A stretch of DNA of 25,204 nucleotides from a virus. Each line of letters starts with the position of its first letter. Positions within the stretch are counted from its first letter, which is position 1. Shown here piece after piece: positions 3,036 to 23,023 of the stretch. Under the pieces are notes generated by a model. It had not been told where the DNA came from and made no database searches. It saw nothing but the letters and a program-made list of their open reading frames with translations. The translations under genes were made by a program, and so were the position numbers. The stretch is from positions 1-25,204 of the IMG/VR virus record IMGVR_UViG_3300034101_002454. One strand, given 5' to 3'.

Positions 3036-3881
3036 TTAAAATGCCATTACATCAAAATGGACTAGTTCTCCATTTATTTGTCCAATGTTTTCACCATGCA
3101 AATCTTTTGTTGCAATATCGTTAGCTTCCAACTTCAATAATAATTCTCTGTATTTTTCAATATAGTCTATCAATTCATCATAGGTAATATTTACACTCGA
3201 AACTGGTTTTTCTCTTCTTGGAATGTAATAATTACTCTCGTCTTCATCATCGAATTCTTCATCTTCCTCATCATCTTCATCACTACTATAATAACCACTA
3301 ATACCAATTGGTGGGATTTCATCTTCAGGTTCAGGACTTTCCAATCTATCAACCAAATTATCCAAAAACTCTTCATCATAATCATCCCAAAAATCAGAGT
3401 CAGAATAATTTGCACCCATATAAAACATCGTTGTGTAAATATCTTTTTCTGTTTTTGAAATTGGTTTTGCTTTATCCATTAGAATACCATAAATGTTATA
3501 TTCAGGATAATATTCATAACCATAATAATTTACAATACCAGGTATTTCTTTTCCTACTATTTTTTCAATTCCCTTTATTTCATCTTCGTCTTGGGTAAGT
3601 TTCAATATTTTTGTACCATCAGCTACAAATGCAATTCCATAATATCCTCTACCTGCATATGAAATTTTATTAATTCCAAATTTTTTTGATAAGTCATTAA
3701 CAATATCTTTGATGTCAGCTCCATCAAGTCCTTGTTTTATTTTTTTAATACCTCTTTCGTTTTTAGTTAAAACATCTGTTTTCCAATCTTTTCTTAAATT
3801 TTTAATGTTTCTTATATCACCAAAATTACCTAATTGTTCATTAAGTATTTTATACTGACTTTCACTTATTATTATTTTCAT
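3036..3881 (-). CDS. Protein-kinase-like protein with N-terminal targeting-like segment
   Basis: 281 residues. A glycine-rich loop (GRGYYG, 77-82) is followed by a beta-strand lysine (KILKL, K94). Near the C-terminus comes a catalytic-loop-like KDLHGENIG (D260, H262, N265) and a metal-binding-like FDV (D277). These match the order and spacing of eukaryote-like and bacterial Asp-Leu-His-x-x-Asn kinases. The chain ends four residues after the DFG-like site, so the usual activation segment and C-lobe are missing. A very acidic low-complexity insert lies at about 201-216. Residues 1-15 (MKIIISESQYKILNE) resemble a capsid-targeting propeptide with L-N-E before Q16. The start overlaps the upstream gene's stop as ATGA, so the gene is the last of a coupled operon. 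It may phosphorylate host proteins early in infection or be a pseudokinase. Kinase fold is inferred from motifs only. Confidence 0.6.
   Translation of the reverse strand: MKIIISESQYKILNEQLGNFGDIRNIKNLRKDWKTDVLTKNERGIKKIKQGLDGADIKDIVNDLSKKFGINKISYAGRGYYGIAFVADGTKILKLTQDEDEIKGIEKIVGKEIPGIVNYYGYEYYPEYNIYGILMDKAKPISKTEKDIYTTMFYMGANYSDSDFWDDYDEEFLDNLVDRLESPEPEDEIPPIGISGYYSSDEDDEEDEEFDDEDESNYYIPRREKPVSSVNITYDELIDYIEKYRELLLKLEANDIATKDLHGENIGQINGELVHFDVMAF
3849..3881 (-). repeat. Repeated 33-bp N-terminal coding cassette, copy 1
   Basis: The first 11 codons of the kinase-like gene match the first 11 codons of its upstream neighbour (4514-4546) at 31 of 33 bases. The two mismatches change Ser6 to Thr6. 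The proteins differ completely beyond this segment. Confidence 0.85.
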
Positions 3882-4546
3882 ATAAATAACTTACCTTTAA
3901 CTCCAAATTTATTTTTTATTTCATCTTCACTCATTCCACTATCTTTTAATTCTTTTCCAAGTGGGGTATATTGTAAACCTAAATTACGCCCAACTGAAAT
4001 TAAATTAGGTAATGATTCAATTTTTGAACCCAATAACTCAAGAGTACCAACTTCTTTTAATTCAGGTAATGATTTAATGTTTACATGATTCAATTTAAAT
4101 AAACCATCAACTGAAGTTAAATCAGGTATTGATGTAATTTTACAATTACTATAAATGATTATATTCTTATTTGTACTTACTAACTCATCCAAATCACCAT
4201 CATTTAATCTGAAAAAATGTATTGTTTTCAAATTTGGTAATTTGAATATTAAGTCAATTGTTGTTTTTGATAAGTTATCATACACATTTAAAATAGTCTT
4301 TTTTGTTATTTTTTTCAAATTTATTACATATGGTTTATATTTAAAAAGTTTGAATAATTCTTCATAATTTTCCAATATTGTACTCTGTTTTATCTTAAAA
4401 CCTTTTGCAATTTCAAATGCCATATCAATATTTGTTTCATCAAATGACTCAATTAAGTACATAATCTTTCCAAGTAATTTGTTTTCCTCGGTTTCTTCGT
4501 TTTCAAATATTAGTTTATACTGACTTTCTGTTATTATTATTTTCAT
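3878..4546 (-). CDS. Leucine-rich-repeat-like phage protein with targeting-like N-terminus
   Basis: 222 residues. The C-terminal half carries irregular leucine-rich repeats: LPNLKTI, ITSIPDLTSV, IKSLPELKEV and IESLPNLISV, at about 103-195. This pattern is typical of short protein-binding LRR segments in phage and effector proteins. Residues 1-15 (MKIIITESQYKLIFE) match the start of the next gene almost exactly and end in I-F-E before Asn16, as in a prohead-protease site. No signal peptide or membrane segment is seen. Its start lies one base downstream of the preceding gene's stop, and it overlaps the kinase-like gene by 4 bp (ATGA), so all are probably co-translated. A binding partner cannot be predicted. 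LRR call moderate; function unknown. Confidence 0.7.
   Translation of the reverse strand: MKIIITESQYKLIFENEETEENKLLGKIMYLIESFDETNIDMAFEIAKGFKIKQSTILENYEELFKLFKYKPYVINLKKITKKTILNVYDNLSKTTIDLIFKLPNLKTIHFFRLNDGDLDELVSTNKNIIIYSNCKITSIPDLTSVDGLFKLNHVNIKSLPELKEVGTLELLGSKIESLPNLISVGRNLGLQYTPLGKELKDSGMSEDEIKNKFGVKGKLFI
4514..4546 (-). repeat. Repeated 33-bp N-terminal coding cassette, copy 2
   Basis: This is the partner of the cassette at 3849-3881, with 31 of 33 bases identical. It encodes MKIIITESQYK. Confidence 0.85.
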
Positions 4547-4547
4547 A

Positions 4548-6194
4548 TTATATTTCGTTTAATCTACCCATTAAATTTTCATTATAATCATTTTTATTTA
4601 TATTAGGATTAAAATAGTCTCTGAATCTTGGTTTTGGAAAATCAATACTTCCTTCACTTAATAATTCATTAAATACACAACTAGGATTATCATAACAATT
4701 CTCATAATATTCATCAAGAGTGTCCTCATCCATCTTACGAGTATAATCTTTCAAATCAATTTGTATCTTAATTGTTTCATTACTGAATTCAATAACATTT
4801 CCATATTCTTCTAAAGCTGATTTTAAGGTGTCTCTTAAATGATTAATATATTCATTTATTCCAACATCATTTGCTGCATCAGTGATTGCATTACAAATAT
4901 AATGCTCATCATCATATTGTACTATCTTCTCTTCCAAAGACATATCTTCATCAACCTCATCACCACTTTTACTAATCCATTCGTCAATAATTGACTCAAT
5001 TAATTTTTTATTTTCAGGATTTACAATATCAAATATTGACTCCCAATCATATCCAAAATCCATATCCCAAACTGATTCCCAAATTGAATCGGACATTATT
5101 TGTTCATACCAACTTTCTCTTTCAACCATCTCTTTACCCTCACTATTTTTATATCTACGAGTTGAATAAGTATCACCCTGCAAATATATTCCAAGTTCAT
5201 TTGGTGATAGTTCCAAAACAAATCTTGTTTGGGGAGGTTCAACATCAATAATACCCATCTCACCCAACTTTCTTTTTAAACCTCTTGTATTAAATATTTC
5301 AGGTCTATCGTTATATATTTTTCTAATTGTTGCTTCAGGTAAATCAGATAATTTGAAATCTTGGCTAGAAGCATATTCACTTCCAAAACCTTGGATTAAA
5401 TAATTATCTTCACCTGTAGTATCCCAACTACCTGAAGCATAAAACAATGGTTCAATATATTTGTGATATTCTTCTTTTGGTTTTGAGTTCTTAGGTCCTT
5501 TTAATTGATATAATGTTCCATCAGTATCAATAGCAGCAGTTAAATGACTTCTATTAATCTTATATTTTCCACCAGGTAAAACTTTATCACTTCTTAATGA
5601 ATATAGATAACCATATGAACTTCTTCCACAATGTCCCATTCTTTCGCATTCTTCGGGTGAGTTTTTAACACCAAGGTCAGCCCAATAATATCCTTCACCA
5701 TTTTCATTTCTAAAATCAATTAGGATTGGAGCATTTTCAATATAATTTATGGCACCTTGACCAATATTTAAACTATCGTGCCATTGACTTGATAGTGAAG
5801 CAATTTGTACTATTGATAAATCATCCAAACTACTTTTATTACCATTCAATCCCACTTGAATATAATCCATAATTTCTGATAATACATTTCTAAGTATGTA
5901 TACAGTTAATCGAGAGTTCAATCGATTTTTTGCTGCAGATAAAATATCTTTGTTTGGAACATTAGGTTCAGCTTGACTTTTAGCATCATCATAAAAATGT
6001 TTAAGATATTTGTTGGCCAACCATACAGATAATTTCTTACCTATTTCATCGAATACTTGAGCTAAATCTTCTTTCAATCCCAACTTATCCATTAGAATTT
6101 CTTTTTTGGATTCATTCAACAATCCAAAATTATCATTATATTCCTTTAATAAATTTAGGATTTTTTTGTGGTAATATTTTTCTTTTAATTTCAT
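4548..6194 (-). CDS. PcfJ-like phage protein, third copy of a tandem module
   Basis: 548 residues, a paralogue of both halves of the upstream gene. The N-terminal region (1-150) is helical and includes LLNE|SKKEIL at 25-34, a possible prohead-protease site. The conserved core is EECERMGHCGRSS (181-193), LYSLRS (197-202), SHLTA (216-220), LYQLKGPKNSKP (228-239) and YHKYI (243-247). The order His-Cys-Gly, S-L-R, H-L-T, Q-x-K-G-x-x-N-x-K-P resembles the PcfJ-like domain found in phages and conjugative plasmids, whose biochemical role I cannot state. The C-terminal region (330-548) is acidic and varies between copies. The ATG overlaps the preceding stop by 4 bp, implying translational coupling. 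The invariant Cys and His could be catalytic or metal-binding, which is inference. Confidence 0.7.
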   Translation of the reverse strand: MKLKEKYYHKKILNLLKEYNDNFGLLNESKKEILMDKLGLKEDLAQVFDEIGKKLSVWLANKYLKHFYDDAKSQAEPNVPNKDILSAAKNRLNSRLTVYILRNVLSEIMDYIQVGLNGNKSSLDDLSIVQIASLSSQWHDSLNIGQGAINYIENAPILIDFRNENGEGYYWADLGVKNSPEECERMGHCGRSSYGYLYSLRSDKVLPGGKYKINRSHLTAAIDTDGTLYQLKGPKNSKPKEEYHKYIEPLFYASGSWDTTGEDNYLIQGFGSEYASSQDFKLSDLPEATIRKIYNDRPEIFNTRGLKRKLGEMGIIDVEPPQTRFVLELSPNELGIYLQGDTYSTRRYKNSEGKEMVERESWYEQIMSDSIWESVWDMDFGYDWESIFDIVNPENKKLIESIIDEWISKSGDEVDEDMSLEEKIVQYDDEHYICNAITDAANDVGINEYINHLRDTLKSALEEYGNVIEFSNETIKIQIDLKDYTRKMDEDTLDEYYENCYDNPSCVFNELLSEGSIDFPKPRFRDYFNPNINKNDYNENLMGRLNEI

Positions 6195-9100
6195 AAATGG
6201 TATCTTTCAATATAATTTAAGCTGTCATTTAGTTGTTCATTGAAGTAATCATTGTCAATATCAACTTCATCTATATCAGGTCTTCTCCAATAAGGTTTTG
6301 ATATAATGTCTCTACCAACTAACTCTTTAAATACATCAGAGGTAGAAAAGTCACCATAGTCTTCTTCTATTCCATCATATACTTCAATAACTTCTGGGTC
6401 ATCAATATCAACAAGTTCTCCAATATCACCTTCAATATCAAGACTAATAGCAACTCCATAATCATTCCAAATAACTGAACCATAACCTTCAAGTGTAGTT
6501 AATAAAGATTCTTTTAATTTTCCAATTGCCGAATCAGCTATACTATCACGATAACAATCGTGATAAACTTCGTAAGTATAATTAATAATTAAATTTCTGG
6601 TATCTATTTTTCTTATTAAATTAGCCACTAGTCTTGATATTTGTAAACTCCATTCTGTAATATTTTCAACTTCTTCCAATTGTTTTAATTGTTCTTCAGT
6701 TGGTTTCATCATTTTTAATAATCTTATCATATGTGACCTTAATCCAGCATAAACATTTTCTTTTAAAACTTTTTCTAATGATGGTTCTTTATAACTAGGT
6801 AATGAATATTCTTCACCAATCCATTCATATAACTCATCTATTTTGTTGGGGCCTAAAAGAGCGTGTGATAAGTATGTTTTATTCACCACATGCCTTGAAC
6901 TATAAGGATTACTACTTTGGTTTTTTGTGGTGTAAATTACTTCATCATTATCAATATAATAATGTATAGAATCAAAATCTATTTCCACATAAAAATCTGT
7001 TGGTAATGGTTCAACTTCTATTTCAATTCCCAATTCAGCCATTTTACTTTTTAACCCTCTTGATTTGAATATTTCAGGTCTAATTTCATACAAATCTTTG
7101 AGTGTCTGCATTGGTAAATCTTCTAATTTGAAATCTTGACTAGAAGCATATTCACTTCCAAATTCTTTGATGAAATAATCATCATCTTCATCTTGTAAAT
7201 CAAATAAAGGTAAAATGAATTTATGATATTCTTCTTTTGGTTTTGAGTTCTTAGGTCCTTTTAATTGATATAATATTCCATCATTACTTATTGATGCTGT
7301 TAAATGACTATCATTAACCTTATACTTTCCATCTGGTGTTAATCTATAGCTCCTTAATGAATATAATGACCCAGAAGAACTTCTTCCACAATGTCCCATC
7401 CTTTCACACTCTTCAGTAGAATTATTCGTTTGTAGGTTAACCCAGTAATACCCTACACCATTTTCATTTCTAAAATCAATTAGGATTGGATTGTTTTCAA
7501 TATAATTTATTTTACTATCACCAACATTCAAACTATCGTGCCATTCTTTTGACTTCTCTTTAATTTGTTCAAAAGTTAAATTAACCAAAGACGATTTATT
7601 CCTATTCAATCCATTAATAAAATAATCCATAATTGAATTTAAATCTTGTCTTAATTGTGACGTTGGATTTAATTCTTTTGCCACACGTTCTTTGGGCATA
7701 CTAGTAAGTTTTTGAAAACTATCAATCACTTTATTAGCAAAAAAAGTAGATAACCCACCAGCAATTGAATCAAACATTTGAGCTGTATCAGGTTTTAATC
7801 CAGTTTTGTTAATTAGTATTTCTAATTTTGATTTGGCCTCAGTAAGGGTATCACTATGTTTGGAGTTATAGTCTTTTAATAGTTTTATAATCTTGTTTTG
7901 ATGATAAATTTCATTCATTGATTCCTTTTTAATTATTTCCTCCAACTTATTCAATTCTCTATATAATCTCTTGTTGAATATTTCAACATTAATTTCTATT
8001 TCACTTACACTAGGTTTTTCCCAAATAGGTTTTTCAATTAGGTCACGTTTCACTATCATATCAACAACATTATCCATATAAATCTCCTCAAAATCCTCAT
8101 AAACTTCATTATAAATTTCAATAATTTTTGGGTCATCAATATCAACTATTTCACTAAGGTCGCCCATTATTTTAATGTGACCGTGTAGCGTATCATTGAT
8201 AATTGAACCATAATATTCAAGAGTTTGAATTAACCTTGGATAATAATCTTCATATACTGGTTCAAGTAATGCTTCCCTATATGTTTTAGATATTTCAGTA
8301 CTAATATCACTACCAGCTTCAGTTTGTTTAATTAATATTGGTAATGACACTTGATTGAATTTTAATTTTTCGTCAATTGGAACTTCAATCATAATGATTT
8401 GTCTCATATAATCTTTTAGCTCCTCACTAACATATTTTTCCAAAATATCCTCAGCGTAAATATTGCCGTGAATGTCAATATAATTTTCTAATGATTCATA
8501 ATCACCAGACAAAATAATCTCAGATAAATAAATAGTTTTAGACCAAAAATTACGGACAACATCAAACCCAGATTCATCCCCTTGAATATATTTTCTTATA
8601 TCTTCATATGGAATAGATGTATCAAAATCTGTTGGTAATGGGTCAACTTCGATTTCAATTCCAAATTCAGCCATTTTACTTTGTAGTCTTCTTGATTTGA
8701 ATATTTCAGGTCTTACCCTATATAAATCTTTGAGCGTCTCCATTGGTAAATCTTCCAATTTAAAGTCTTCTTGTGTTTCGTATTCTGTCCCAAAACCTTG
8801 AATCAAATATTCATCATCCTCATTTTTAACATCAAATAATGGTAAAATATATCTATGATATTTTTCACTTGGTTTTGAATTTTTTGGACCTTTTAATTGA
8901 TATAATTTTCCATCATCACCAATTGATGCCGTTAAATGACTTTTATTAACCTTATATTTCCCATTTTGTTGATAACTTCTTAATGAATATAAACTACCTA
9001 AACTACTTCTTCCACAATGACCCATTCTCTCACATTCTTCTTTGGAGTCTTTTGTTCTTAAATCAACCCAATAATATCCATTACCATCTTCATCTCTGAA

Positions 9101-9571
9101 ATCAATTAGGATTGGATTTTTTTCAATATAATTTAAAGAACCTTCACCAATATTTAAACTATCGTGCCATTGTCTTGATTTTGATACAATTTGCTGTATT
9201 GGTAAATCATCCAAACTACTTTTATTACCATTCAATCCAACTTGGATGTAATCCATAATTCCTGGTAATAATCTTCTTAAAGCTGAGGGTGTTATAGTAG
9301 AATTTAAATGATGTTTAGCTACCTCTAGAATGTCTTTATGGGGAACATTAGGTTCAGCTTGTTTTTTTGCATTATCGTAATAAAATTTAAGATATTTGTT
9401 AGCCAACCATACAGATAATTTCTTACCTATTTCATCAAATACTTGAGCCAAGTCTTCATTTAATCCCAACTTATCCATTAGGATTTCCTTCTTGGATTCA
9501 TTCAACAATCCAAACTTATCATTATACTCCTTTAATAATTGTATTATTTTCTTTTGATTAATTAATGACAT
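6191..9571 (-). CDS. Fused double PcfJ-like phage protein
   Basis: I start the gene at the ATG at 9571 (MSLINQKK), giving 1126 residues. The longer in-frame extension to 9646 would run into non-coding AT-rich sequence beside a terminator and gives an unlikely peptide. Module 1 covers residues 1-551 and module 2, starting MNEIYHQNK at 7918, covers 552-1126. Each has the ECERMGHCGRSS, YSLRS, SHLTAS and YQLKGPKNSKP signature and a helical N-terminal part. Module 1 has L-N-E before Ser26 and module 2 has L-T-E before Ala, again like prohead-protease sites. The internal ATG at 7918 might serve as a second start. The fusion may come from a small indel, since another frame meets a stop just before the junction. 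It heads the operon ending at 3036. Function unknown. Confidence 0.7.
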   Translation of the reverse strand: MSLINQKKIIQLLKEYNDKFGLLNESKKEILMDKLGLNEDLAQVFDEIGKKLSVWLANKYLKFYYDNAKKQAEPNVPHKDILEVAKHHLNSTITPSALRRLLPGIMDYIQVGLNGNKSSLDDLPIQQIVSKSRQWHDSLNIGEGSLNYIEKNPILIDFRDEDGNGYYWVDLRTKDSKEECERMGHCGRSSLGSLYSLRSYQQNGKYKVNKSHLTASIGDDGKLYQLKGPKNSKPSEKYHRYILPLFDVKNEDDEYLIQGFGTEYETQEDFKLEDLPMETLKDLYRVRPEIFKSRRLQSKMAEFGIEIEVDPLPTDFDTSIPYEDIRKYIQGDESGFDVVRNFWSKTIYLSEIILSGDYESLENYIDIHGNIYAEDILEKYVSEELKDYMRQIIMIEVPIDEKLKFNQVSLPILIKQTEAGSDISTEISKTYREALLEPVYEDYYPRLIQTLEYYGSIINDTLHGHIKIMGDLSEIVDIDDPKIIEIYNEVYEDFEEIYMDNVVDMIVKRDLIEKPIWEKPSVSEIEINVEIFNKRLYRELNKLEEIIKKESMNEIYHQNKIIKLLKDYNSKHSDTLTEAKSKLEILINKTGLKPDTAQMFDSIAGGLSTFFANKVIDSFQKLTSMPKERVAKELNPTSQLRQDLNSIMDYFINGLNRNKSSLVNLTFEQIKEKSKEWHDSLNVGDSKINYIENNPILIDFRNENGVGYYWVNLQTNNSTEECERMGHCGRSSSGSLYSLRSYRLTPDGKYKVNDSHLTASISNDGILYQLKGPKNSKPKEEYHKFILPLFDLQDEDDDYFIKEFGSEYASSQDFKLEDLPMQTLKDLYEIRPEIFKSRGLKSKMAELGIEIEVEPLPTDFYVEIDFDSIHYYIDNDEVIYTTKNQSSNPYSSRHVVNKTYLSHALLGPNKIDELYEWIGEEYSLPSYKEPSLEKVLKENVYAGLRSHMIRLLKMMKPTEEQLKQLEEVENITEWSLQISRLVANLIRKIDTRNLIINYTYEVYHDCYRDSIADSAIGKLKESLLTTLEGYGSVIWNDYGVAISLDIEGDIGELVDIDDPEVIEVYDGIEEDYGDFSTSDVFKELVGRDIISKPYWRRPDIDEVDIDNDYFNEQLNDSLNYIERYHL

Positions 9572-9630
9572 AATATTTTTTATATAAACTATAAATATTA
9601 AAGATTCTGTCTTTATACCTATTAACCAAC

Positions 9631-9660
9631 AAAAATAAAACCCCACTTTTTATGGTGGGG
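9631..9660 (-). terminator. Rho-independent terminator after the Dps-like gene
   Basis: A 6-bp GC stem (CCCCAC/GTGGGG) with an 8-base loop lies directly after the Dps-like stop codon. T-rich sequence follows on the minus strand. A run of T also follows on the plus strand (9662-9669), so the site may work in both directions. It separates the Dps-like gene from the PcfJ-like operon. Confidence 0.75.
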
Positions 9661-10645: not shown

Positions 10646-10904
10646 TTGTCTGAGTTATTTTATTGTAATTAAATTTACTTGCGAATTCCATTGCGTCTTC
10701 TAAACTATTCCAACACATTTTAGTCCATAAAGAGTTCCAATAAACATCATCTTTTTTTCTGTGGGCTAAAATATACCAGGATAAACCATTTCTTGAAATT
10801 TGTATATGAAAATTATCTTTTCTACAATTCCAGCTTACACTAAGACTAAACTTACCCTCAACTTTTTGATTGAATGTGGTTTTGTTTACAACTTTCTTTT
10901 CCAT
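10626..10904 (-). CDS. Unknown 92-residue Trp-rich phage protein
   Basis: Starts MEKKVVNKTTFNQ. Six tryptophans (for example SWNC, LSWY, VYWNSLWTKMCWNSL) and alternating strands suggest a compact beta-rich fold with a helix at the end (EDAMEFASKFNY). I do not recognise the family. The start overlaps the smpB end by 19 bp, so the two are likely translated together. No signal peptide. Confidence 0.65.
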   Translation of the reverse strand: MEKKVVNKTTFNQKVEGKFSLSVSWNCRKDNFHIQISRNGLSWYILAHRKKDDVYWNSLWTKMCWNSLEDAMEFASKFNYNKITQTNEHDNV

Positions 10905-11302
10905 CCTAATTCTCTATTTAAATCACGTTCTTGAATTGTTTGTCGCTTATCGTGAATCTTCTTCCCTTGTGCCAAAACTATTTCAACTTTAACTAGTCCC
11001 CTATCATTAACATAAATTTTGGTTGGGACAATTGTTAAACCATTAATAAGTTTTGATTTCAATTTATTAAGCTCAGATTTCTTTAATAACAACTTTCTTT
11101 CCCTTTTTGGTTCCCCATTTGGTAAAGATATTGAAATATTTTTAACAAACAATTCTTGGTCTTTGAAATAACAATATGTGTCAGTTAAATTTGCATTTCC
11201 ATTACGGATGGATTTAACTTCCATTCCTGTCAATACAATACCAGCTTGATAGGTTTCAAGGAATGTATATTCAAATTTGGTTTTTCTATTTTCAATATTC
11301 AT
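10886..11302 (-). CDS. smpB: SsrA-binding protein SmpB
   Basis: 138 residues from the ATG at 11302. The longer reading (MMMMKTK from 11323) comes from the upstream gene's acidic tail and is unlikely. The full family signature is present: NRKTKFEY, ETYQAGIVLTGMEVKSIRNG (beta-barrel core), NLTDTY, RKLLLKKSELNKL, GLTIVPTKIY, LVKVEIVLAQGKKIHDKR and the basic C-terminal tail. It is shorter than bacterial SmpB (about 150-160) because the central loop before RKLLL is reduced. SmpB binds tmRNA and guides it into stalled ribosomes for trans-translation. I see no tmRNA gene in this window. In a phage it could support or divert host rescue. It overlaps both neighbours, lying inside an operon of small unknown genes. 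Family call very sure. Confidence 0.93.
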   Translation of the reverse strand: MNIENRKTKFEYTFLETYQAGIVLTGMEVKSIRNGNANLTDTYCYFKDQELFVKNISISLPNGEPKRERKLLLKKSELNKLKSKLINGLTIVPTKIYVNDRGLVKVEIVLAQGKKIHDKRQTIQERDLNRELGWKRKL

Positions 11303-11531
11303 CTTCGTCTTCATCATCATCATATTCTAATTCCCAATTTGCTTCATTGTTTTTGTTTGTGATATATTGTTCCAATTCTTTGGCGACTTCCAAGTATTTT
11401 TCTCTTAACTCGTGGAATTTTTCATCTTTTATTTCTTTGAATGAGGAGTAGTGTTTGAAACAATAATGAAACCCTTCTTCTTTCATTCTGTAATAAACAT
11501 CATTCCAATTTTCTGCTTCTTCTGCTTTCAT
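11292..11531 (-). CDS. Small protein with acidic C-terminal tail
   Basis: 79 residues, starting MKAEEAENWNDVYYRMKEEG. A helical, charged body (EIKDEKFHELREKYLEVAKELEQY region, 31-55) is followed by a tail of Asp and Glu (YDDDEDEDEY). Acidic tails of this kind can mimic nucleic acid or bind basic partners, but that is speculation here. It overlaps smpB by 11 bp. No known family recognised. Confidence 0.65.
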   Translation of the reverse strand: MKAEEAENWNDVYYRMKEEGFHYCFKHYSSFKEIKDEKFHELREKYLEVAKELEQYITNKNNEANWELEYDDDEDEDEY

Positions 11532-11786: not shown

Positions 11787-12023
11787 TTATTTTACCAATT
11801 GATAATTTTCATCGTTAATTAATTTCAATACTTTTTTCTCAACAGTGGTGTTCAATGCTGGTTTTCTTGCCATCTCAGTCAAACTTTTAGAAAAGATAAC
11901 CTGATACTTCAATTTGTTGTTATAGTAGTATCTAACAACATAGATGTATTCACCGTTGTCGTTAACAAATAAACCATTGCTTTTTCCTAGTAAAATCTGT
12001 CCCAATGTTTTTTCAGTAGTCAT
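11787..12023 (-). CDS. Unknown 78-residue protein, first gene of the smpB operon
   Basis: I start at the ATG at 12023 (MTTEKTLGQILLG). A longer reading from a TTG at 12089 would translate through the conserved 39-bp element and is rejected. The protein has beta strands (GLFVNDNGEYIYVVRYYYNNKLKYQVIF, in pieces) and a C-terminal helix. No family recognised. It lies directly behind element B, so it is probably the first gene transcribed from it. The operon runs on through smpB to the lipoprotein at 10220. Confidence 0.6.
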   Translation of the reverse strand: MTTEKTLGQILLGKSNGLFVNDNGEYIYVVRYYYNNKLKYQVIFSKSLTEMARKPALNTTVEKKVLKLINDENYQLVK

Positions 12024-12050: not shown

Positions 12051-12089
12051 AATACTATTATAACCAATCAAAAAACCATAAAGTTCCAA
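12051..12089 (-). promoter_or_regulatory. Duplicated 39-bp upstream element, copy B
   Basis: On the minus strand this reads TTGGAACTTTATGGTT, six variable bases, then TTGGTTATAATAGTATT. The other copy at 12889-12927 has the same spacing, and only two bases of the second block differ. It ends 27 bases before the ATG of the smpB operon. TATAAT could serve as a -10 box. I infer a phage promoter or leader element. Confidence 0.65.
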
Positions 12090-12164
12090 GTTTGATTATT
12101 TTTTTTTAGTGTTTTAATTTAAGAAAAAACTACATATATCTGTAATCGTTATAAGTAATAAAAA

Positions 12165-12338
12165 TTACTCAAAATACCCTTGTCCAGAAAACAAAATTTT
12201 TTCACCATCATTACGTTTATAAACAATTTCTCCTGAAATAACATCACTAAGGATGATTGTAACAATTTCATCAAAAATTTCGTTTCCGTAATCAAAAACC
12301 CTAACCATATCACCTCTTTTCAAATTAATATTTTCCAT
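12165..12338 (-). CDS. Unknown 57-residue protein
   Basis: Reads MENINLKRGDMVRVFDYGNE, followed by a beta-rich chain ending SGQGYFE. The LKRGDMVRVFD start and short strands suggest a small beta-barrel (SH3/KOW-like) fold, which is a guess from pattern. It lies 108 bases downstream of the DUF6011-type gene on the same strand. An AT-rich 6-bp hairpin (AGTAAT/ATTACT) overlaps its stop codon and could be a weak terminator. The rest of the downstream gap to element B shows nothing I can name. Confidence 0.6.
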   Translation of the reverse strand: MENINLKRGDMVRVFDYGNEIFDEIVTIILSDVISGEIVYKRNDGEKILFSGQGYFE

Positions 12339-12362
12339 AATCGTAATTTTTACATACTTATA

Positions 12363-12392
12363 ACAACAAATATGTGTAAGTTTTATTGTTGT
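12363..12392. repeat. Inverted repeat upstream of the 57-residue gene
   Basis: ACAACAA and TTGTTGT face each other across 16 bases in the 108-base gap before 12338. It could be an operator half-site pair or a leader hairpin. The rest of the gap is AT-rich, with an orphan copy of AACTCCAATAATTTTT near 12432. Confidence 0.35.
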
Positions 12393-12446
12393 GAATATAA
12401 AGATAAGAAAAGATTTTTAATAAAAACAAAAAACTCCAATAATTTT

Positions 12447-12866
12447 TTATTTACTTGAACAAGTAGGTCCCAAACCTCTTTCAATACTTTGACCATCAGT
12501 CAACACTCTCCCACAACGTAAACAACTACCAGTATGGGAAATTTCAACATTTTCATTCAATAAGTCAAATTTTTCCTCTTCAACTTTGGATAAAACCCAA
12601 GCAATCGCTGTGGCAGTAGGAATGTTAACCACATTTTTTTTATTGTATATTTTACCACTAAAATAAGTTCCAATGCGTTTGAAATTCATATATTCCATCT
12701 CCACACTAATGTGAGTGTACCACTTACCATTGAAAAGGGATCTTGTGATTGTGTAAGTGTATTCCTTGCCGGTTTTAAGTGATTTAATAACAAAAGAAGC
12801 ACCATTGTTATTTTTCTCAGCTTTGAGAACCGAAGTAAGACTTGTTGATGGAATTACGTGTTTCAT
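12447..12866 (-). CDS. DUF6011-type zinc-ribbon phage protein
   Basis: 139 residues from the ATG at 12866 (MKHVIPSTSL). The longer frame to 13037 would translate through a terminator and the 39-bp element A, so I reject it. The C-terminus has CLRCGRVLTDGQSIERGLGPTC, quoted here in two parts: CLRCGRVLTDGQ and SIERGLGPTC. This is the compact Cys-x2-Cys...Gly-x-Gly-Pro-x-Cys motif of DUF6011 domains, common at the ends of phage and actinobacterial proteins. The first 90 residues are beta-rich (SFVIKSLKTGKEYTYTI...KWYTHISVEM, in pieces) and resemble the region that usually precedes this motif. It probably binds zinc; the partner is unknown. It is the first gene behind element A. Confidence 0.75.
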   Translation of the reverse strand: MKHVIPSTSLTSVLKAEKNNNGASFVIKSLKTGKEYTYTITRSLFNGKWYTHISVEMEYMNFKRIGTYFSGKIYNKKNVVNIPTATAIAWVLSKVEEEKFDLLNENVEISHTGSCLRCGRVLTDGQSIERGLGPTCSSK

Positions 12867-12888
12867 ATTTGATATTATTTGTGATGTT

Positions 12889-12927
12889 AATAATAGTATA
12901 ACCAACCCACCAACCATAAAGTTCCAA
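12889..12927 (-). promoter_or_regulatory. Duplicated 39-bp upstream element, copy A
   Basis: Minus strand: TTGGAACTTTATGGTT, six variable bases, then TTGGTTATACTATTATT. It lies between the terminator of the Nudix gene and the ATG at 12866, where a promoter is expected. See copy B at 12051-12089. Confidence 0.65.
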
Positions 12928-12929
12928 CC

Positions 12930-12969
12930 AAATAAAAAAACTCCAATAATTTTTACAATTATCGGAGTT
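12930..12969 (-). terminator. Terminator after the Nudix gene
   Basis: A 13-bp stem (AACTCCGATAATT/AATTATTGGAGTT, one G-U pair) with a 5-base loop is followed by seven T on the minus strand. It lies 65 bases after the Nudix stop and just ahead of element A. Confidence 0.8.
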
Positions 12970-13033: not shown

Positions 13034-13420
13034 TCAAAAAATCTTATTTATTATAAAAAAAAGTTGATTTTCTACATTATTCGGTAAAGTTTTTTTTGTA
13101 AACCATTTACATTCCTCGTGTTCAAACCCATCCTTAGCCTCATCCAAATCAATATTTATCTTTTTATCAATCTCATATAAGAACAAATAGAACTTCATTC
13201 TTGACCCACCATTCAATGTTGCCACATAATCCAACTTATCAACAATCTGATATCCAGTTTCTTCCCTAAACTCCCTTACAGCACCATCTTGAATATCCTC
13301 ACCTTTCTCCAAATGTCCTCCAGGAACTGACCAAATACCTGGTAAACTCCCTTTCTGACTTCTTTTACATAATAAACAATGATTTTTATATTTTAATAAA
13401 ATACCTGCACAATTTCCCAT
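13034..13420 (-). CDS. Nudix hydrolase
   Basis: 128 residues. The Nudix box is exact: G35-x5-E41-x7-R49-E50-F51-R52-E53-E54-x-G56-Y57. R52, E53 and E54 are the metal-binding helix. Strands before it (GILLKYKNHCLLCKR) and the GSLPGIWSVPGG approach are those of MutT-like and ADP-ribose or (d)NTP pyrophosphohydrolases. Substrate cannot be told. In phages these enzymes clean nucleotide pools, decap RNA or hydrolyse ADP-ribose derivatives. It is transcribed away from the DUF192 gene, with only 26 bases between the two starts. A TATAAATA box lies in that gap on its strand. A terminator follows at 12930-12969. Confidence 0.92.
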   Translation of the reverse strand: MGNCAGILLKYKNHCLLCKRSQKGSLPGIWSVPGGHLEKGEDIQDGAVREFREETGYQIVDKLDYVATLNGGSRMKFYLFLYEIDKKINIDLDEAKDGFEHEECKWFTKKTLPNNVENQLFFIINKIF

Positions 13421-16613: not shown

Positions 16614-16642
16614 AAATAAAAAAAAGGTCTTAAATGACCCTT
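16614..16642 (-). terminator. Terminator after the methyltransferase operon
   Basis: A 7-bp stem with one G-U pair (AAGGGTC/GACCTTT) and a 6-base loop begins inside the stop codon of the first methyltransferase. A long T run follows on the minus strand. Confidence 0.75.
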
Positions 16643-17462
16643 ATTTGATATTTTTAAAAATATGTGTAATTACATCTACAGTCCACCCATTCCCAAGTAA
16701 TTTAAACCTTTCGGTGTTTGAGACTCCCCTTGTATAATTTAATGGTATTGTTTGTAATAGTTCACAATCTTGTGGTGTATATTTGTATATCTGACCCAAT
16801 TCATTTTTACAATAAGATGAAATCTGTCCTTTATACATTGATGCTGTTAAACAAGATGCCTTATCTCTATATGACTTAACGACATCCTTTCTTGTTCCCC
16901 TACCATAGAAAGGTAAATCTAAATAGTTTGGATATTTGTCCTTAAATTCTGGAGAGATTACATCACAAATATTTAACCCCAAGTCTTTTGGTTGTGTTAT
17001 ATTTGGGATATTTGTCCAATACAACCTTGGCCTATTTTGGGCTGAAACTAATCTACTATTAATCTTAATTGGTTTGACACCAAGATGTTCAGTGATTACA
17101 TCTTGCCATTCTTCTCTCATTACAACATTTTCAAGTAAAAAGTATTTAGGATTAGTTTCTTTTAATAGTCTAACATACTCAAAGAATAATTTACTCCTTG
17201 GGTCATTGAAATTCAATTGTTTTCCTACCTTTGAGAATCCTTGGCAAGGTGACCCACCTACGAGAAGGTCTATTGGTGGTAAATCACTTCCTTTAATTTC
17301 CGTTATATCACCCAATTGAATTGTGTTGGGGTAATTTTGTTGTGTAACCTTAATTGAACTTTTATCAATCTCGGATGCAAAATACTTATCATATTTTATT
17401 CCAATTCTATTTAGGGCAATTTGACCACAACTTAACCCATCAAACAAACTTAATACATTCAT
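16641..17462 (-). CDS. DNA cytosine-C5 methyltransferase 1
   Basis: 273 residues with all core motifs: I NVLSLFDGLSCGQ (2-14), IV GGSPCQGFS with catalytic C73, VI ENV (111-113), VIII QNRPR (142-146) and X GNGWTVDVI. It transfers methyl from S-adenosylmethionine to C5 of cytosine in a target set by the region between VIII and X. That region (DKYPNYLDLPFYGRGTRKD, about 170-205) differs from the other copies, so it likely has its own target. The start overlaps the preceding gene by 4 bp. It is compact for a Dcm enzyme (usually 320-450), mainly because the target-recognition part is small. Phages use such enzymes to escape host restriction. Confidence 0.92.
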   Translation of the reverse strand: MNVLSLFDGLSCGQIALNRIGIKYDKYFASEIDKSSIKVTQQNYPNTIQLGDITEIKGSDLPPIDLLVGGSPCQGFSKVGKQLNFNDPRSKLFFEYVRLLKETNPKYFLLENVVMREEWQDVITEHLGVKPIKINSRLVSAQNRPRLYWTNIPNITQPKDLGLNICDVISPEFKDKYPNYLDLPFYGRGTRKDVVKSYRDKASCLTASMYKGQISSYCKNELGQIYKYTPQDCELLQTIPLNYTRGVSNTERFKLLGNGWTVDVITHIFKNIK

Positions 17463-18280
17463 AATTTAATATTTTTAAAAATATGTGCAATTACATCAAC
17501 AGTCCAACCATTACCAATCATTTTGTATCTTTCTGTGTTACTAACAACAGATGTATACCCTTCTGGTATTGTTTGTAATTTCTCAAATTCAGTTGGGTTT
17601 AATAATCTACATAAAGTTTTATCCTCGTTGAAGAGATATTGATTTGTGTGACAATTCTTGGTGGTTAAACAATTTGATTTCTCATTCTTAACCCAATTAG
17701 GATTTTTATTTATTCTTTCTTTTGTTCCCCATTTATTATAAAAACATTTTGGTATTTCTCTAAAATTGTCATCAGTTAATACATCTGATAGTTTAATCTT
17801 CTTATCTTCAGGTTGGGTTATGTTGGGAATGTTTGTCCAGTATAATCTGTCTCTGTTTTGACCAGATACTAGATTACTATTAATTCTTATAGGTTCAACA
17901 CCCATTTCCTTTGTGATGATGTCTTCCCATTCTTTTTTCATCTTTACATTTTCAAGTAAAAAATATTTGGGTTGAACTTCATTTAGGACTCTAACAAATT
18001 CCCAAAATAAACCACTCTTTCCATCAAAACCTGTTCTGTTACCTACAGATGAAAAACTTTGACAAGGACTGCCACCAAATAACACATCTATCTTTGGTAA
18101 GTCCGAACCTTTGATTTTATGAATATCACCTAACTGAATTGTGTTAGGGTAGTTGTGTTGAGTTACTTTAATTGCGTGAACATCAATCTCAGAGGCGTAA
18201 TAGTTATCGTAACTAATCCCAACTTTATTTAAAGCGATTTGGCCACAACTTAACCCATCAAAAAGACTTAATACATTCAT
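17459..18280 (-). CDS. DNA cytosine-C5 methyltransferase 2
   Basis: 273 residues, paralogue of its neighbour. The first 70 residues are nearly the same: NVLSLFDGLSCGQ, then EID, VTQHNYPNTIQLGD and IKGSDLP. Catalytic motif GGSPCQSFS (C73), ENV, QNRDR and GNGWTVDVI are intact. The target-recognition region differs (REIPKCFYNKWGTKE and following), pointing to another recognition site. It overlaps neighbours by 4 bp on both sides. No partner restriction endonuclease is seen in the window, so this is an orphan methyltransferase, as is common in phages. Confidence 0.92.
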   Translation of the reverse strand: MNVLSLFDGLSCGQIALNKVGISYDNYYASEIDVHAIKVTQHNYPNTIQLGDIHKIKGSDLPKIDVLFGGSPCQSFSSVGNRTGFDGKSGLFWEFVRVLNEVQPKYFLLENVKMKKEWEDIITKEMGVEPIRINSNLVSGQNRDRLYWTNIPNITQPEDKKIKLSDVLTDDNFREIPKCFYNKWGTKERINKNPNWVKNEKSNCLTTKNCHTNQYLFNEDKTLCRLLNPTEFEKLQTIPEGYTSVVSNTERYKMIGNGWTVDVIAHIFKNIKL

Positions 18281-18639
18281 TTAAACACTTCTATTTTTGC
18301 ATCCATTTTTATTAATTCACTCCAATTACCTTTATAGGTTGTTGCTTTGACTGGTCTATTATCAATCCAATGATATTCTTGACCATCCTTACACCTTGGT
18401 TTATCCATTATTAGTCCGTGGAATTTGAATCCTTTCAATCTTAACCAATCTTCCGTAATATGTCTATCTTTTGATTCTCTTGCGGTAAAAAAAGTTATAA
18501 TGTTTCCTTCATCATACCATTTATTTAACATCAATCTACTTTCTTCAAAGTGTAATGCAAATGGAAATAAATGGGAATCTTCATTGTTAATGTCTTCACA
18601 TATTGTTCCATCAATGTCAATCAAAAAAATCTTATTCAT
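18277..18639 (-). CDS. HAD-superfamily phosphatase-like protein
   Basis: 120 residues. Motif I LIDIDGTI supplies the nucleophile D8 and acid/base D10. Motif II is FFTAR, and a late DNRP may provide the metal-binding aspartate. There is no cap domain, as in the small phage HAD proteins and the phosphatase half of polynucleotide kinases. It sits between two methyltransferases with 4-bp overlaps on each side, so it is co-translated with them. It may act on a sugar phosphate, a nucleotide or a DNA 3' end. Whether it is tied to DNA modification is unclear. Confidence 0.8.
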   Translation of the reverse strand: MNKIFLIDIDGTICEDINNEDSHLFPFALHFEESRLMLNKWYDEGNIITFFTARESKDRHITEDWLRLKGFKFHGLIMDKPRCKDGQEYHWIDNRPVKATTYKGNWSELIKMDAKIEVFK

Positions 18640-19739
18640 AATTCTATGTTTTTAAATATATGTGCAATGACATCAACTGTCCAACCATTACCTAACATTT
18701 TTCTAGCCTGACTATCACTTACAACATTAGTATAACCATCCGGAACTGTCTGTAATCTTTCCATTTCAATTGGATATAGTTTTCTATATTTCCAACTTGG
18801 GTCAACAATAAAATCTAAAGGAGATTCAACGGTTACCAAACAATTTCCTTTACCATTTTTATTTGATACATACATTTTAAATTGTTTACTTCTTGGGGTT
18901 GAATCTTTACCAGTTTCCATTCTTATTTTTCTACGCATTTCTTTTCCCTCATCTGTTCTTGTTTCATAAAAAGAAAAAGGTGCTTCATCGAATAAATCAA
19001 TATGTACTTTTTTACCATTTATTGCATCCAAAATCATTGTACGTTGTTTTCGTTCAATACTATTCCAAGCAGCAGCCCCATTATATGTTGCGGTTAAAGC
19101 ATACGCTTTTTCATCCATAGTCATTCGACTATCAATACAACCATCAACAATAATATCTTTTAATGTAATTCCCTTATCTTCAGGTTGGGTTACATTTGGA
19201 ATATTAGTCCAATATAATCTTCTTCTATTTTGAGCAGAAACTAATGCTGAATTAATTTCAATCGGTTCAACACCCAATACTTCACTAAAGATATTTTGCC
19301 ATTTTTTTAACATTTTAACATTTTCAAGAAGAAAATATTTTGGTTTAACTTCTTTTAATATTCTAACATATTCCCAAAATAAATAAGATTGTCCTTCAAA
19401 TTGAAAGCCTTCTTCTTTTAATTGTAGATATTGTTCTAATGTTAATATTTCAATATCTTCTTTTGTTGACATCCCTTTCATCTTACCAGCAAATGAAAGA
19501 TTTTGACAGGGTGACCCACCACACATCAATGTAATTGTTGGTAAATCAGAACCTTTTATTTTTGTTATATCCCCCAATTGAATCGTGTTAGGATAGTTGT
19601 GTTGGGTTACTTTGATTGCGTGAACATCAATCTCGGAAGCATAATAATTGTCGTATTTTATTCCTACTTTGTTTAATGCTATTTGGCCACAACTCATCCC
19701 ATCGAAAAGTCCCAGAACATTTTTTATCTCCTTTTGCAT
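18636..19739 (-). CDS. DNA cytosine-C5 methyltransferase 3, with altered start
   Basis: 367 residues. Core motifs are intact: NVLGLFDGMSCGQ (7-19), GGSPCQNLS (C78), ENV, QNRRR and GNGWTVDVI. It differs from the two shorter copies by about 95 residues, through an insert after the catalytic loop (KGMSTKEDIEILTLEQYLQL, 84-103 region) and a longer target-recognition region. The start MQKEIK replaces the MN that opens the other copies. It overlaps the end of the GIY-YIG gene by 16 bp. A severed MNVLSLFDG start lies on the far side of that endonuclease, so this gene was probably cut and given a new start. Confidence 0.9.
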   Translation of the reverse strand: MQKEIKNVLGLFDGMSCGQIALNKVGIKYDNYYASEIDVHAIKVTQHNYPNTIQLGDITKIKGSDLPTITLMCGGSPCQNLSFAGKMKGMSTKEDIEILTLEQYLQLKEEGFQFEGQSYLFWEYVRILKEVKPKYFLLENVKMLKKWQNIFSEVLGVEPIEINSALVSAQNRRRLYWTNIPNVTQPEDKGITLKDIIVDGCIDSRMTMDEKAYALTATYNGAAAWNSIERKQRTMILDAINGKKVHIDLFDEAPFSFYETRTDEGKEMRRKIRMETGKDSTPRSKQFKMYVSNKNGKGNCLVTVESPLDFIVDPSWKYRKLYPIEMERLQTVPDGYTNVVSDSQARKMLGNGWTVDVIAHIFKNIEL

Positions 19740-20347
19740 ATATTATTTGTTTTCAGTAATCTATAAACTGTTGGTGTTGATATCTTGTATTTAGATTCCA
19801 AATCTTTGATTTTCATCCCATTTTTGTAATCTTTAACAAATTCTATTTCATCAATTTTTACTCTTAGTTTTTCTCTAACAATACCCTCTCTGTATTTTCC
19901 CCTTTTGACATACCTTTGATTTGTTTGTTTTTCTCGATATTCAGGATTTTGCCATTTTTGTTTTATTGTCTCACTTATTTTTTCACTCCATGTTATTTTT
20001 CTACCCATCATTGTGTTAGAAATTGATTTTTTAACTTCATCAGCCAAAGTTGTTGTATTTCCACCAGTTTGTAAATTATATCCATTCGGAGATAAAGTAT
20101 TATAGTGTTGAATAAAAAAGATTTCTAAATTATTAAGTTCATCTTTGGAAAAGTCCCCACTCACAATTTCACTAATCTCGAAGTTTTCTTTACCATACTT
20201 CCTAATTGCCGAATATAATGCTGAACATTGGTTTTTACAATTAATTTGGGATAAGTGTTTTTTGAATCTAGTTTTCAATGAATTTATTGTTTGTCCAATA
20301 TAAAGTTTACCATTAATTTTGTTTTCAATCTTATAAATGCTTTTCAT
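19724..20347 (-). CDS. GIY-YIG homing endonuclease
   Basis: 207 residues. The N-terminal nuclease has SIY (3-5) and YIG (16-18), R27, H31, E75 and N91 in GYN, the usual catalytic set of the family (the first Gly is Ser). A NUMOD3-like DNA-binding segment follows (KKSISNTMMGRK, SEKISETIKQKWQNPEYREK, about 105-140). A helix-turn-helix-like end (IKDLESKYKISTPTVYRLLK) completes the seg-like layout. Such enzymes cut a host gene and spread by repair. It is a free-standing gene, not in an intron, and is inserted within a methyltransferase gene. Its own start is preceded by ATTTATAATAAAA. Confidence 0.93.
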   Translation of the reverse strand: MKSIYKIENKINGKLYIGQTINSLKTRFKKHLSQINCKNQCSALYSAIRKYGKENFEISEIVSGDFSKDELNNLEIFFIQHYNTLSPNGYNLQTGGNTTTLADEVKKSISNTMMGRKITWSEKISETIKQKWQNPEYREKQTNQRYVKRGKYREGIVREKLRVKIDEIEFVKDYKNGMKIKDLESKYKISTPTVYRLLKTNNICKRR

Positions 20348-20386
20348 ACTTATGTTTTATTATAAATATGTACAGAACAAATAAAA

Positions 20387-20446
20387 TTAATGGTATTTGA
20401 TGGTATTTTTTGAAATTATCCCATCAAAAAGACTCAGTACATTCAT
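20387..20446 (-). pseudogene. Severed start of a cytosine methyltransferase
   Basis: The ATG at 20446 overlaps the DUF3310 stop by 4 bp (ATGA), as the intact methyltransferases do with their neighbours. Its first nine codons read MNVLSLFDG, identical to the start of copies 1 and 2. It then departs into unrelated sequence (IISKNTIKYH, stop). The GIY-YIG endonuclease gene follows 40 bases later, and methyltransferase 3 with NVLGLFDG follows that. I read this as the 5' stump left by insertion of the endonuclease. Confidence 0.8.
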
Positions 20447-20688
20447 TTATTTTCCAATTGATTTATATGATGTTGGAGATAAAACATTGCTTTCTTTAAA
20501 TCTTCCAATTCTTTATTGGGGTCTTTCTTTCCAGCTCTACTAATATATTTTACGGTATTACCCAAAGCAAATCCTAGTTCCCAAGCATCAATCACCTTAA
20601 TTGCTTCGTAAACATTATCGGCTCCCCCATAATGACTAGGGTGATTAACCATTTCTTTATTTTCCCAAGTTTTCATTAAGGTCTCCAT
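20443..20688 (-). CDS. DUF3310 phage protein
   Basis: 81 residues with the classic DUF3310 core: VNHPSHYGG (14-22), IKVIDAW (30-36), GFALGNTVKYISRAGKK (39-55) and L-DLKKAMFYLQH-I. It is widespread in phages. The His-Pro-x-x-Tyr and Lys-Tyr-x-x-Arg motifs are conserved, and its role is unknown, perhaps in nucleotide metabolism. An alternative ATG at 20676 sits after GGAGACCTTA and would give a TAATG junction with the gene before it. I keep the longer form. The downstream stump shows that it once preceded a methyltransferase directly. Confidence 0.9.
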   Translation of the reverse strand: METLMKTWENKEMVNHPSHYGGADNVYEAIKVIDAWELGFALGNTVKYISRAGKKDPNKELEDLKKAMFYLQHHINQLENK

Positions 20689-21661: not shown

Positions 21662-23023
21662 TTAATTTGTTCTTACAACAACAAAATTGTATCTAATACC
21701 ATTAGGTCCTGTTATATAAACATCATCATAACTTCCATCATAACTTGATATTGTACCAATACCATCATGTTCAACAATATCTTCAGCGACTCCTCTAACA
21801 TTAACAAAATATTTGATTCTATCATCCTCACCCATACCTCTTAACCAATCAACAGGGTCTTTCATAGCTCTTCTAACATTTTGACTTACTTTTTCTTCAA
21901 TCATTTCCTCTGTTGGTTCATCATTAGGTTCAATACTATCCAATTCGTTTTGTAATTCTTCTATTTGTTGTTCCAAGTCAGTAATTTCATCTTCCTCTTG
22001 TGTATTTTCTAATTGTTCTTGTAAATCACTTATTTGATTCTCTAAAACTTCTTTTCTTTCCTCTTCTTCATCAGTTAATTCATAATCATCTTGTCTAAAA
22101 TAACTTTCTGGACTTTCTCTTATATCGTTATCATAGAACTCCTCAATATATTCCCTAATACTATTTTCATCAAGGTTGCTCTCTATTAAATGTTGACTTA
22201 TACCATCCAATCCAATATCATCCAATAATGTTTCTGTATTTTCAATTGCAGCTTCATACATATCATCATAAGTTCCAACCATATATTCTTGATTTCTCAA
22301 TCCAATAACTTCAAAATTGTATAATGTTCCATAAGATTTATAATTTGTTGGAATTATATAATATACATCAGCATAGTTCTCTTGTAATTCTTCTATTTCA
22401 TCTTCTATTCTATCTATTTCTTCATACAATTCATCTCTTTCTTCAGAATCTGATTCTAATCCTACTCCTTGTTGAGTAAGCTCTTCTATTCTTTCTAGTT
22501 TATTATTTATTAATTCTTTGGTTTCATTATCCATTTCATCTAGTTTACCCTCACTAACTAAATGGTCAAATAAAGCATTTGCTGCCAATCCTTCTTCATC
22601 AATGCTTGGATTGGTCAAATCCCAATCACCATCTTCTCTTCTTGATTCAGCCCCAGCCAATTTCTTTAATTCAGCTTCTCTAGTTCTTTTAGCTTCAATT
22701 GGTGAGCCATAATCCGAGATGTATCCCTTAACTTGAACTCCCTCAACACTAGAAATATTTGTATCCCTTATATCCAAATTCCCATCAATATAAGCAATAT
22801 TACCCAATGTTTTAATTGGTTTACCACTTAAATTTAAATTACCAGTAACATATAATTTTTTACCTTCAAAGAATTTTGGTTTTAAAGCCGCATTTGAATA
22901 AGATGCCAATTCCAATATATTCAATAGTTCTTCTGGACTTATTTTATAATATTCCTCTTCTTGTTCTTTTATAACTTTAATCAAGTGTTTAAACTGACCT
23001 TGACTTAATATAATTTTTCTCAT
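21662..23023 (-). CDS. Coiled-coil and LRR-like protein with targeting-like N-terminus
   Basis: 453 residues. It opens MRKIILSQGQFKHLIKVIKE before Gln21, ending in I-K-E like the other candidate head-targeting segments. Residues 57-105 hold two or three leucine-rich repeats of the GNLNLSGKPIKTL and GNLDIRDTNISSV kind. Long glutamate-rich coiled coils lie at about 180-225 (EERDELYEEIDRIEDEIEEL) and 320-375 (EEERKEVLENQISDLQEQLE). A beta-rich C-terminal domain (about 390-453) ends FVVVRTN. Acidic overall. Its operon context is a single gene, with a divergent + gene 93 bases away. It may be an internal head or scaffold-like protein; function unknown. Confidence 0.65.
   Translation of the reverse strand: MRKIILSQGQFKHLIKVIKEQEEEYYKISPEELLNILELASYSNAALKPKFFEGKKLYVTGNLNLSGKPIKTLGNIAYIDGNLDIRDTNISSVEGVQVKGYISDYGSPIEAKRTREAELKKLAGAESRREDGDWDLTNPSIDEEGLAANALFDHLVSEGKLDEMDNETKELINNKLERIEELTQQGVGLESDSEERDELYEEIDRIEDEIEELQENYADVYYIIPTNYKSYGTLYNFEVIGLRNQEYMVGTYDDMYEAAIENTETLLDDIGLDGISQHLIESNLDENSIREYIEEFYDNDIRESPESYFRQDDYELTDEEEERKEVLENQISDLQEQLENTQEEDEITDLEQQIEELQNELDSIEPNDEPTEEMIEEKVSQNVRRAMKDPVDWLRGMGEDDRIKYFVNVRGVAEDIVEHDGIGTISSYDGSYDDVYITGPNGIRYNFVVVRTN

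Follow-up and report, generated by a model that had tools for sequence, protein, structure and literature searches.

We believe it likely that a 39-bp element found before two small genes in this viral DNA is a portable, lineage-specific phage promoter that doubles as the homology for cassette shuffling. The element is repeated, is restricted to one locus, is exchanged with another promoter before an orthologous gene and has recombinant arms. The phages that carry it are probably very large phages of Bacteroidota, and, judging from the sequences compared, recombination between copies appears to swap small genes in and out.

A repeated two-box element

The duplicated 39-bp two-box element reported in the initial annotation was recovered as exact copies (0 mismatches) on the minus strand of the window, the whole DNA analysed, a viral fragment of 25,204 bases that makes up an entire IMG/VR record (Table 1). 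None of 100 dinucleotide-preserving shuffles of the window contained a match, and a chance repeat was rejected on this basis. Of 54 families of direct repeats in the window, this one is D18; the longer ones ranked above it lie largely within paralogous coding genes. Box 1 is TTGGAACTTTATGGTT and box 2 is TTGGTTATAnTAnTATT, the latter with a -10-like TATAnT. These box sequences are nearly invariant among copies, while the flanks differ. The N6 of the element was initially taken for a free spacer, but it occurs in few versions only (GTTTGA, GGTGGG and minor variants), which recombine as blocks.

The described placement shortly before an ATG holds for both copies, with gaps of 22 bases (copy 1) and 27 bases (copy 2); over all 16 copies discussed below the distance is 15–27 bases. 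The element also lies outside coding sequence, as annotated. An ATG in box 1 is followed by a stop after three codons (MVV*) in most copies and is absent from one of the 16; in copy 1 it happens to read into the DUF6011 gene. Coding sequence or a uORF was rejected on these grounds.

Table 1. Features of the variable locus and its borders in the window
Feature	Positions	Strand	Remarks
Nudix gene	13034..13420	-	Pfam PF00293, E 3.5e-20; 22 viral loci
Stem-loop terminator AACTCCGATAATTGTAAAAATTATTGGAGTTTTTTT	12934..12969	-	3′ of Nudix gene, directly upstream of element copy 1
Element copy 1	12889..12927	-	B-type left arm, N6 GGTGGG, C-type right half; precedes DUF6011 gene
Cassette gene 1, DUF6011 protein, 139 aa	12447..12866	-	Pfam PF19474, E 2.7e-10
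Sigma-A-type promoter remnant	12381..12421	-	TATCTTTA at -7
Cassette gene 2, 57 aa	12165..12338	-	No family match
Element copy 2	12051..12089	-	A-type left arm AATCAAAC, N6 TTTTGA, D-type right half; precedes smpB-containing operon
fam14, lead gene of smpB operon (MTTEKTLGQ...)	11787..12023	-	Promoter exchanged
fam13 gene	11292..11531	-	Conserved locus border, smpB side
smpB	10886..11323	-	Pfam PF01668, E 4.4e-46; downstream gene of operon behind copy 2

Restriction to one hypervariable locus

Since the window is a viral fragment, the question of genome-wide occurrence was answered through relatives, gathered by an IMG/VR pattern scan and by protein searches with the two lead genes. Six further records bear the element, including the 64.5-kb record G001, in which the search found one copy. 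This gives a total of 16 copies in seven viral records, all at one locus between the Nudix gene and the fam13-smpB operon. Two IMG/VR pattern scans returned no copies outside the locus, and the element is absent from 14 further related records (11–261 kb) and from three huge-phage genomes of 635–735 kb; a genome-wide promoter class was rejected on these results. In a relaxed IMG/VR scan, which returned 44 loci, those outside the known locus had at least six mismatches, were mostly in coding sequence and look like chance. Five matches in bacterial genomes, with 7–10 mismatches, were rejected as chance. Of the early or middle promoter that had been proposed, the promoter role thus stands, on the evidence of promoter exchange at orthologous genes, whereas a genome-wide class does not, the copies being restricted to the locus. 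As these fragments probably cover only a small part of the phage genome, some room for copies elsewhere is left.

The Nudix gene is a conserved border of a hypervariable locus, and the gene content between it and the fam13-smpB border varies from phage to phage. The terminator behind the Nudix gene has a fold of -9.1 kcal/mol (single-strand folding; z -6.1), and 0 of 200 shuffles were as stable. Seven unrelated small gene families stand behind the copies of the element: DUF6011, fam14, fam49, fam50, fam198, fam199 and fam203. The cassette genes, for which a role in host takeover had been suggested, are ORFans or DUFs, and the two that were searched in IMG/VR are ORFans found at this locus only. 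The DUF6011 orthologue is preceded by the element in G000, G004, G005, G006 and G007, while cassette gene 2 has an orthologue in G005 only, among the records compared. The view that the copies lead two operons needs correction: copy 1 serves the single DUF6011 gene, and the next gene has its own sigma-A-like remnant. In G003, which is more distantly related, no cassette occupies the slot, the order being Nudix gene, terminator, canonical sigma-A promoter TACCTTTG and fam13.

The two ends of G001 overlap by 206 bases with one mismatch, but the families listed for 33 of its 110 ORFs include no recognised terminase or capsid gene. The only relatives of the conserved DHH-domain gene of the window in the phage collection are uncultured phages of 635–735 kb. 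The gene content of G001 and these DHH-gene relatives suggest that the window is part of a very large phage. SmpB relatives were found among Prevotella Lak phages and, together with the sigma-A-type promoters of the clade, they point to a Bacteroidota host.

Several other features of the window and its relatives were recorded. A gene for a TonB-dependent outer-membrane receptor, unusual cargo for a phage, lies at 128-2956 (minus strand); it is also present in G004 and in G001 (∼92% nucleotide identity), where the homologue matched CarboxypepD_reg, plug and beta-barrel. Several proteins encoded at 3036-9646 and 21662-23023 (minus strand) begin with MKIII(S/T)ESQYK... or LLKEYNDNFGLLNESKK..., N-termini which we take to resemble the capsid-targeting/processing sequences of T4-type internal head proteins. 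By analogy, these proteins are possibly packaged with the DNA. Three paralogues of the DNA cytosine methyltransferase family lie at 16641-19739 (minus strand), with related copies in G001 and G004–G007. In L116, a related record of 261 kb, six paralogous small genes (MDIQVN...) stand in tandem at 6005-8076.

Exchange of promoters before the same gene

Promoter function of the element is well supported by sequence comparison, since orthologous genes are preceded, at one and the same position, by the element in some records and by a canonical sigma-A promoter in others. In G006 and G008, fam14 has the sigma-A promoter TTATCTTTG / TTATCTTTGTATTCACAACAATAAAACACAATCATATG and the leader AACAATAAAACACAATCATATG; in an outgroup clade (∼75% Nudix identity) it has a related sigma-A promoter, TATCTTTG or TATCTTCG. 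In G000, G001 and G005 the element is joined to the same final leader bases, AATAAAAAACACAATCATATG, and in G007 it occurs with a different leader, common to two different genes elsewhere. With the direction set by the outgroup, the fam14 promoter was probably replaced twice. The old sigma-A promoter is still visible in the window as the remnant of Table 1, where its -7 element is altered to TATCTTTA and a different small gene now follows it; in G006 and G008 the same sequence drives the fam14 orthologue.

The Bacteroidota sigma-A promoter is TTTG/TAnnTTTG (PMC6847099). Under a criterion of TTTG at -33, TAnnTTTG at -7 and a spacing of ∼19–21, the element does not qualify. The 16 copies score 1.0–5.7, compared with a median of 5.2 for shuffled elements and mostly 14.6–18.7 for real sites, in agreement with the initial annotation, which had seen no good match; a disguised sigma-A promoter was rejected by this score. 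Sigma-A-type sites number 9 versus 1.5 within the clade (G002 excluded); an enrichment of 36 versus 2.0 is driven by G002, which lies outside the clade and contributes 27 of the 36 sites. The TATAnT of box 2 resembles the general bacterial -10 consensus. The primary holoenzyme of Bacteroidota makes no use of that consensus (PMC6847099), and from this we infer that the element is read by a phage factor. G001 encodes an RpoD-like sigma factor at 19653-20453 (regions 1.2 and 2; complete 266-aa sequence), relatives of which are common in other phages; it is at most a candidate for the reader. We know of no promoter box that box 1 resembles.

A late-like motif, ATATTTATA, is located upstream of 9571, 10108 and 20347 (minus strand), and also occurs in G001, G003–G006 and G008. 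Upstream of clade genes it has 28 sites versus 1.4 expected from shuffles. Since this late-like motif is separate, the element is probably outside the late class; it would belong to an early or middle class.

Recombinant arms and joints

The left arm (AATCAAAC or TTATTTGG), the N6 (GTTTGA or GGTGGG type) and the right half (ACTATTATTAACAT or AnTATTGAATCACTTAATAA type) of the element occur in all pairwise combinations. By the four-gamete comparison, left arm with N6 and N6 with right half each show all four combinations, which indicates crossovers within box 1 and within box 2. Three arrangements, from different phages, were found 3′ of the DUF6011 gene: an A-arm element directly, a half terminator with a B-arm element, and a half terminator with a sigma-A promoter. 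The positions of the joints vary, some being in the element, some at the leader and some in A-tracts. Recombination at short stretches of common sequence best accounts for the joints. The recombinant arms were taken from metagenome assemblies, which may join short repeats wrongly; the repeat is short (39–70 bp), though, and identical joints were seen in independent samples. G001 also encodes a SbcC/SbcD-like pair.

Proposed mechanism and alternatives

Transcription from the element, its temporal class, the protein that reads it and the pathway of recombination can be put together, as we infer them, in the following way. Box 2 would supply the -10-like TATAnT and box 1, at about -40 to -25, a binding place for an activator or an alternative sigma factor, with the transcript starting ∼15–27 bases ahead of the ATG. 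Each copy, with a short leader, would head a small accessory gene in the slot bounded by the Nudix terminator on one side and the smpB operon on the other. The near-identical copies, A-tracts and terminator halves in this slot would be substrates for recombination within and between phages, by which cassettes could be deleted, inserted or swapped, and an incoming gene would retain a working promoter. A further-reaching proposal is that the element represents a hitherto undescribed class of promoters in huge Bacteroidota phages, recognised by a phage-encoded sigma factor or activator, and that it is also the recombination joint of a dedicated cassette-loading site. We put this forward tentatively, as possible though somewhat doubtful; if it is true, any incoming gene falls under the same phage-specific control.

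It is also conceivable, though unlikely, that the element is a promoter only, of a fixed early or middle class, whose repetition reflects ordinary duplication or insertion with no role in shuffling. The promoter-replacement evidence is independent of shuffling, and the clade has a second repeated promoter-like motif, ATATTTATA. However, the element is limited to one hypervariable locus, where it stands before unrelated genes, and its parts have recombined in all pairwise combinations. We consider it improbable that an 8-bp inverted repeat around box 1, AATCAAAC...GTTTGATT, serves a phage transcription factor as its operator or activator site while the promoter lies elsewhere. This repeat is perfect (8/8) in seven of the 16 copies and 7/8 in copy 2, but it is absent or broken in the other eight, including copy 1, where both boxes are intact. 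Its fold in A-arm copies is no better than that of shuffles (z -1.2), and a functional DNA hairpin was rejected on this result.

The cassette-like layout at one locus would suit a site for site-specific recombination or insertion (integron attC-like, or a transposon end) in place of a promoter. Against such a site, which we regard as very improbable, each gene has the element on its 5′ side, close to the ATG, the joints do not share one crossover point, and the families listed for 33 of the 110 G001 ORFs, an incomplete list, include no recognised recombinase. The ATG of box 1, with M-V-V-stop in most copies, could suggest a translated leader or a 5′ UTR RNA element (uORF, riboregulator). Neither the frame nor the length is kept, however, the ATG is missing from one copy and folding gave no stable conserved structure, so that this explanation is the least probable of all.

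A portable promoter that also provides homology for shuffling would be a concrete joint by which very large phages could gain genes yet keep them under phage control. With it, the promoter-cassette principle of T4-type phages would hold for Bacteroidota phages too, with an unrelated promoter. The locus offers a natural promoter replacement before the same gene, polarised by an outgroup, and the element could be used as a marker for accessory-gene cassettes in metagenomes.

Comparison with known systems

The Bacteroidota sigma-A promoter occupies the same position before the same orthologous gene in relatives, but the sequence of the element does not match it. T4 middle promoters consist of a MotA box near -30 and a sigma70-like -10. 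The element has the same two-box layout of activator box and -10, and differs in box sequence and spacing. An integron attC is a fixed site 3′ of promoterless genes, whereas the element is 5′ of genes and its joints vary.

PeSLs, reportedly the promoter early stem-loop cassettes of T4-type phages, are attributed to Arbiol in 2010 and Comeau in 2014. Two reports describe them as repeated promoter-stem-loop cassettes that mediate modular shuffling (PMC4503421, PMC3950731). The element is similar in that near-identical promoter cassettes stand before small variable genes (here 16 copies and seven gene families), in the apparent shuffling among related phages (here variable content between fixed borders, with recombinant arms) and in the terminator beside the promoter in some copies. 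In contrast to PeSLs, a stem-loop terminator precedes only five of the 16 copies, one of them a half terminator, and the promoter sequence is of another type; on these two points the element is not classed as a PeSL. It is also confined to one locus in the setting of huge Bacteroidota phages. Whereas the early promoter of PeSLs is read by the host primary sigma factor, the element does not score as a primary-sigma promoter of Bacteroidota, the probable host.

In the haloarchaeal virus HGTV-1, a repeated motif with a TATA-box-like region and an inverted repeat lies before many ORFs and has been proposed as both a regulator and a shuffling site (PMC3950731). The likeness to the element, a TATA-like box and an inverted repeat ahead of ORFs, is one of layout; the virus is archaeal and its motif is spread across the left-hand side of the genome, compared with one locus here. 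By analogy, the element may work in the manner of PeSLs, from which it differs in sequence, and of the HGTV-1 motif.
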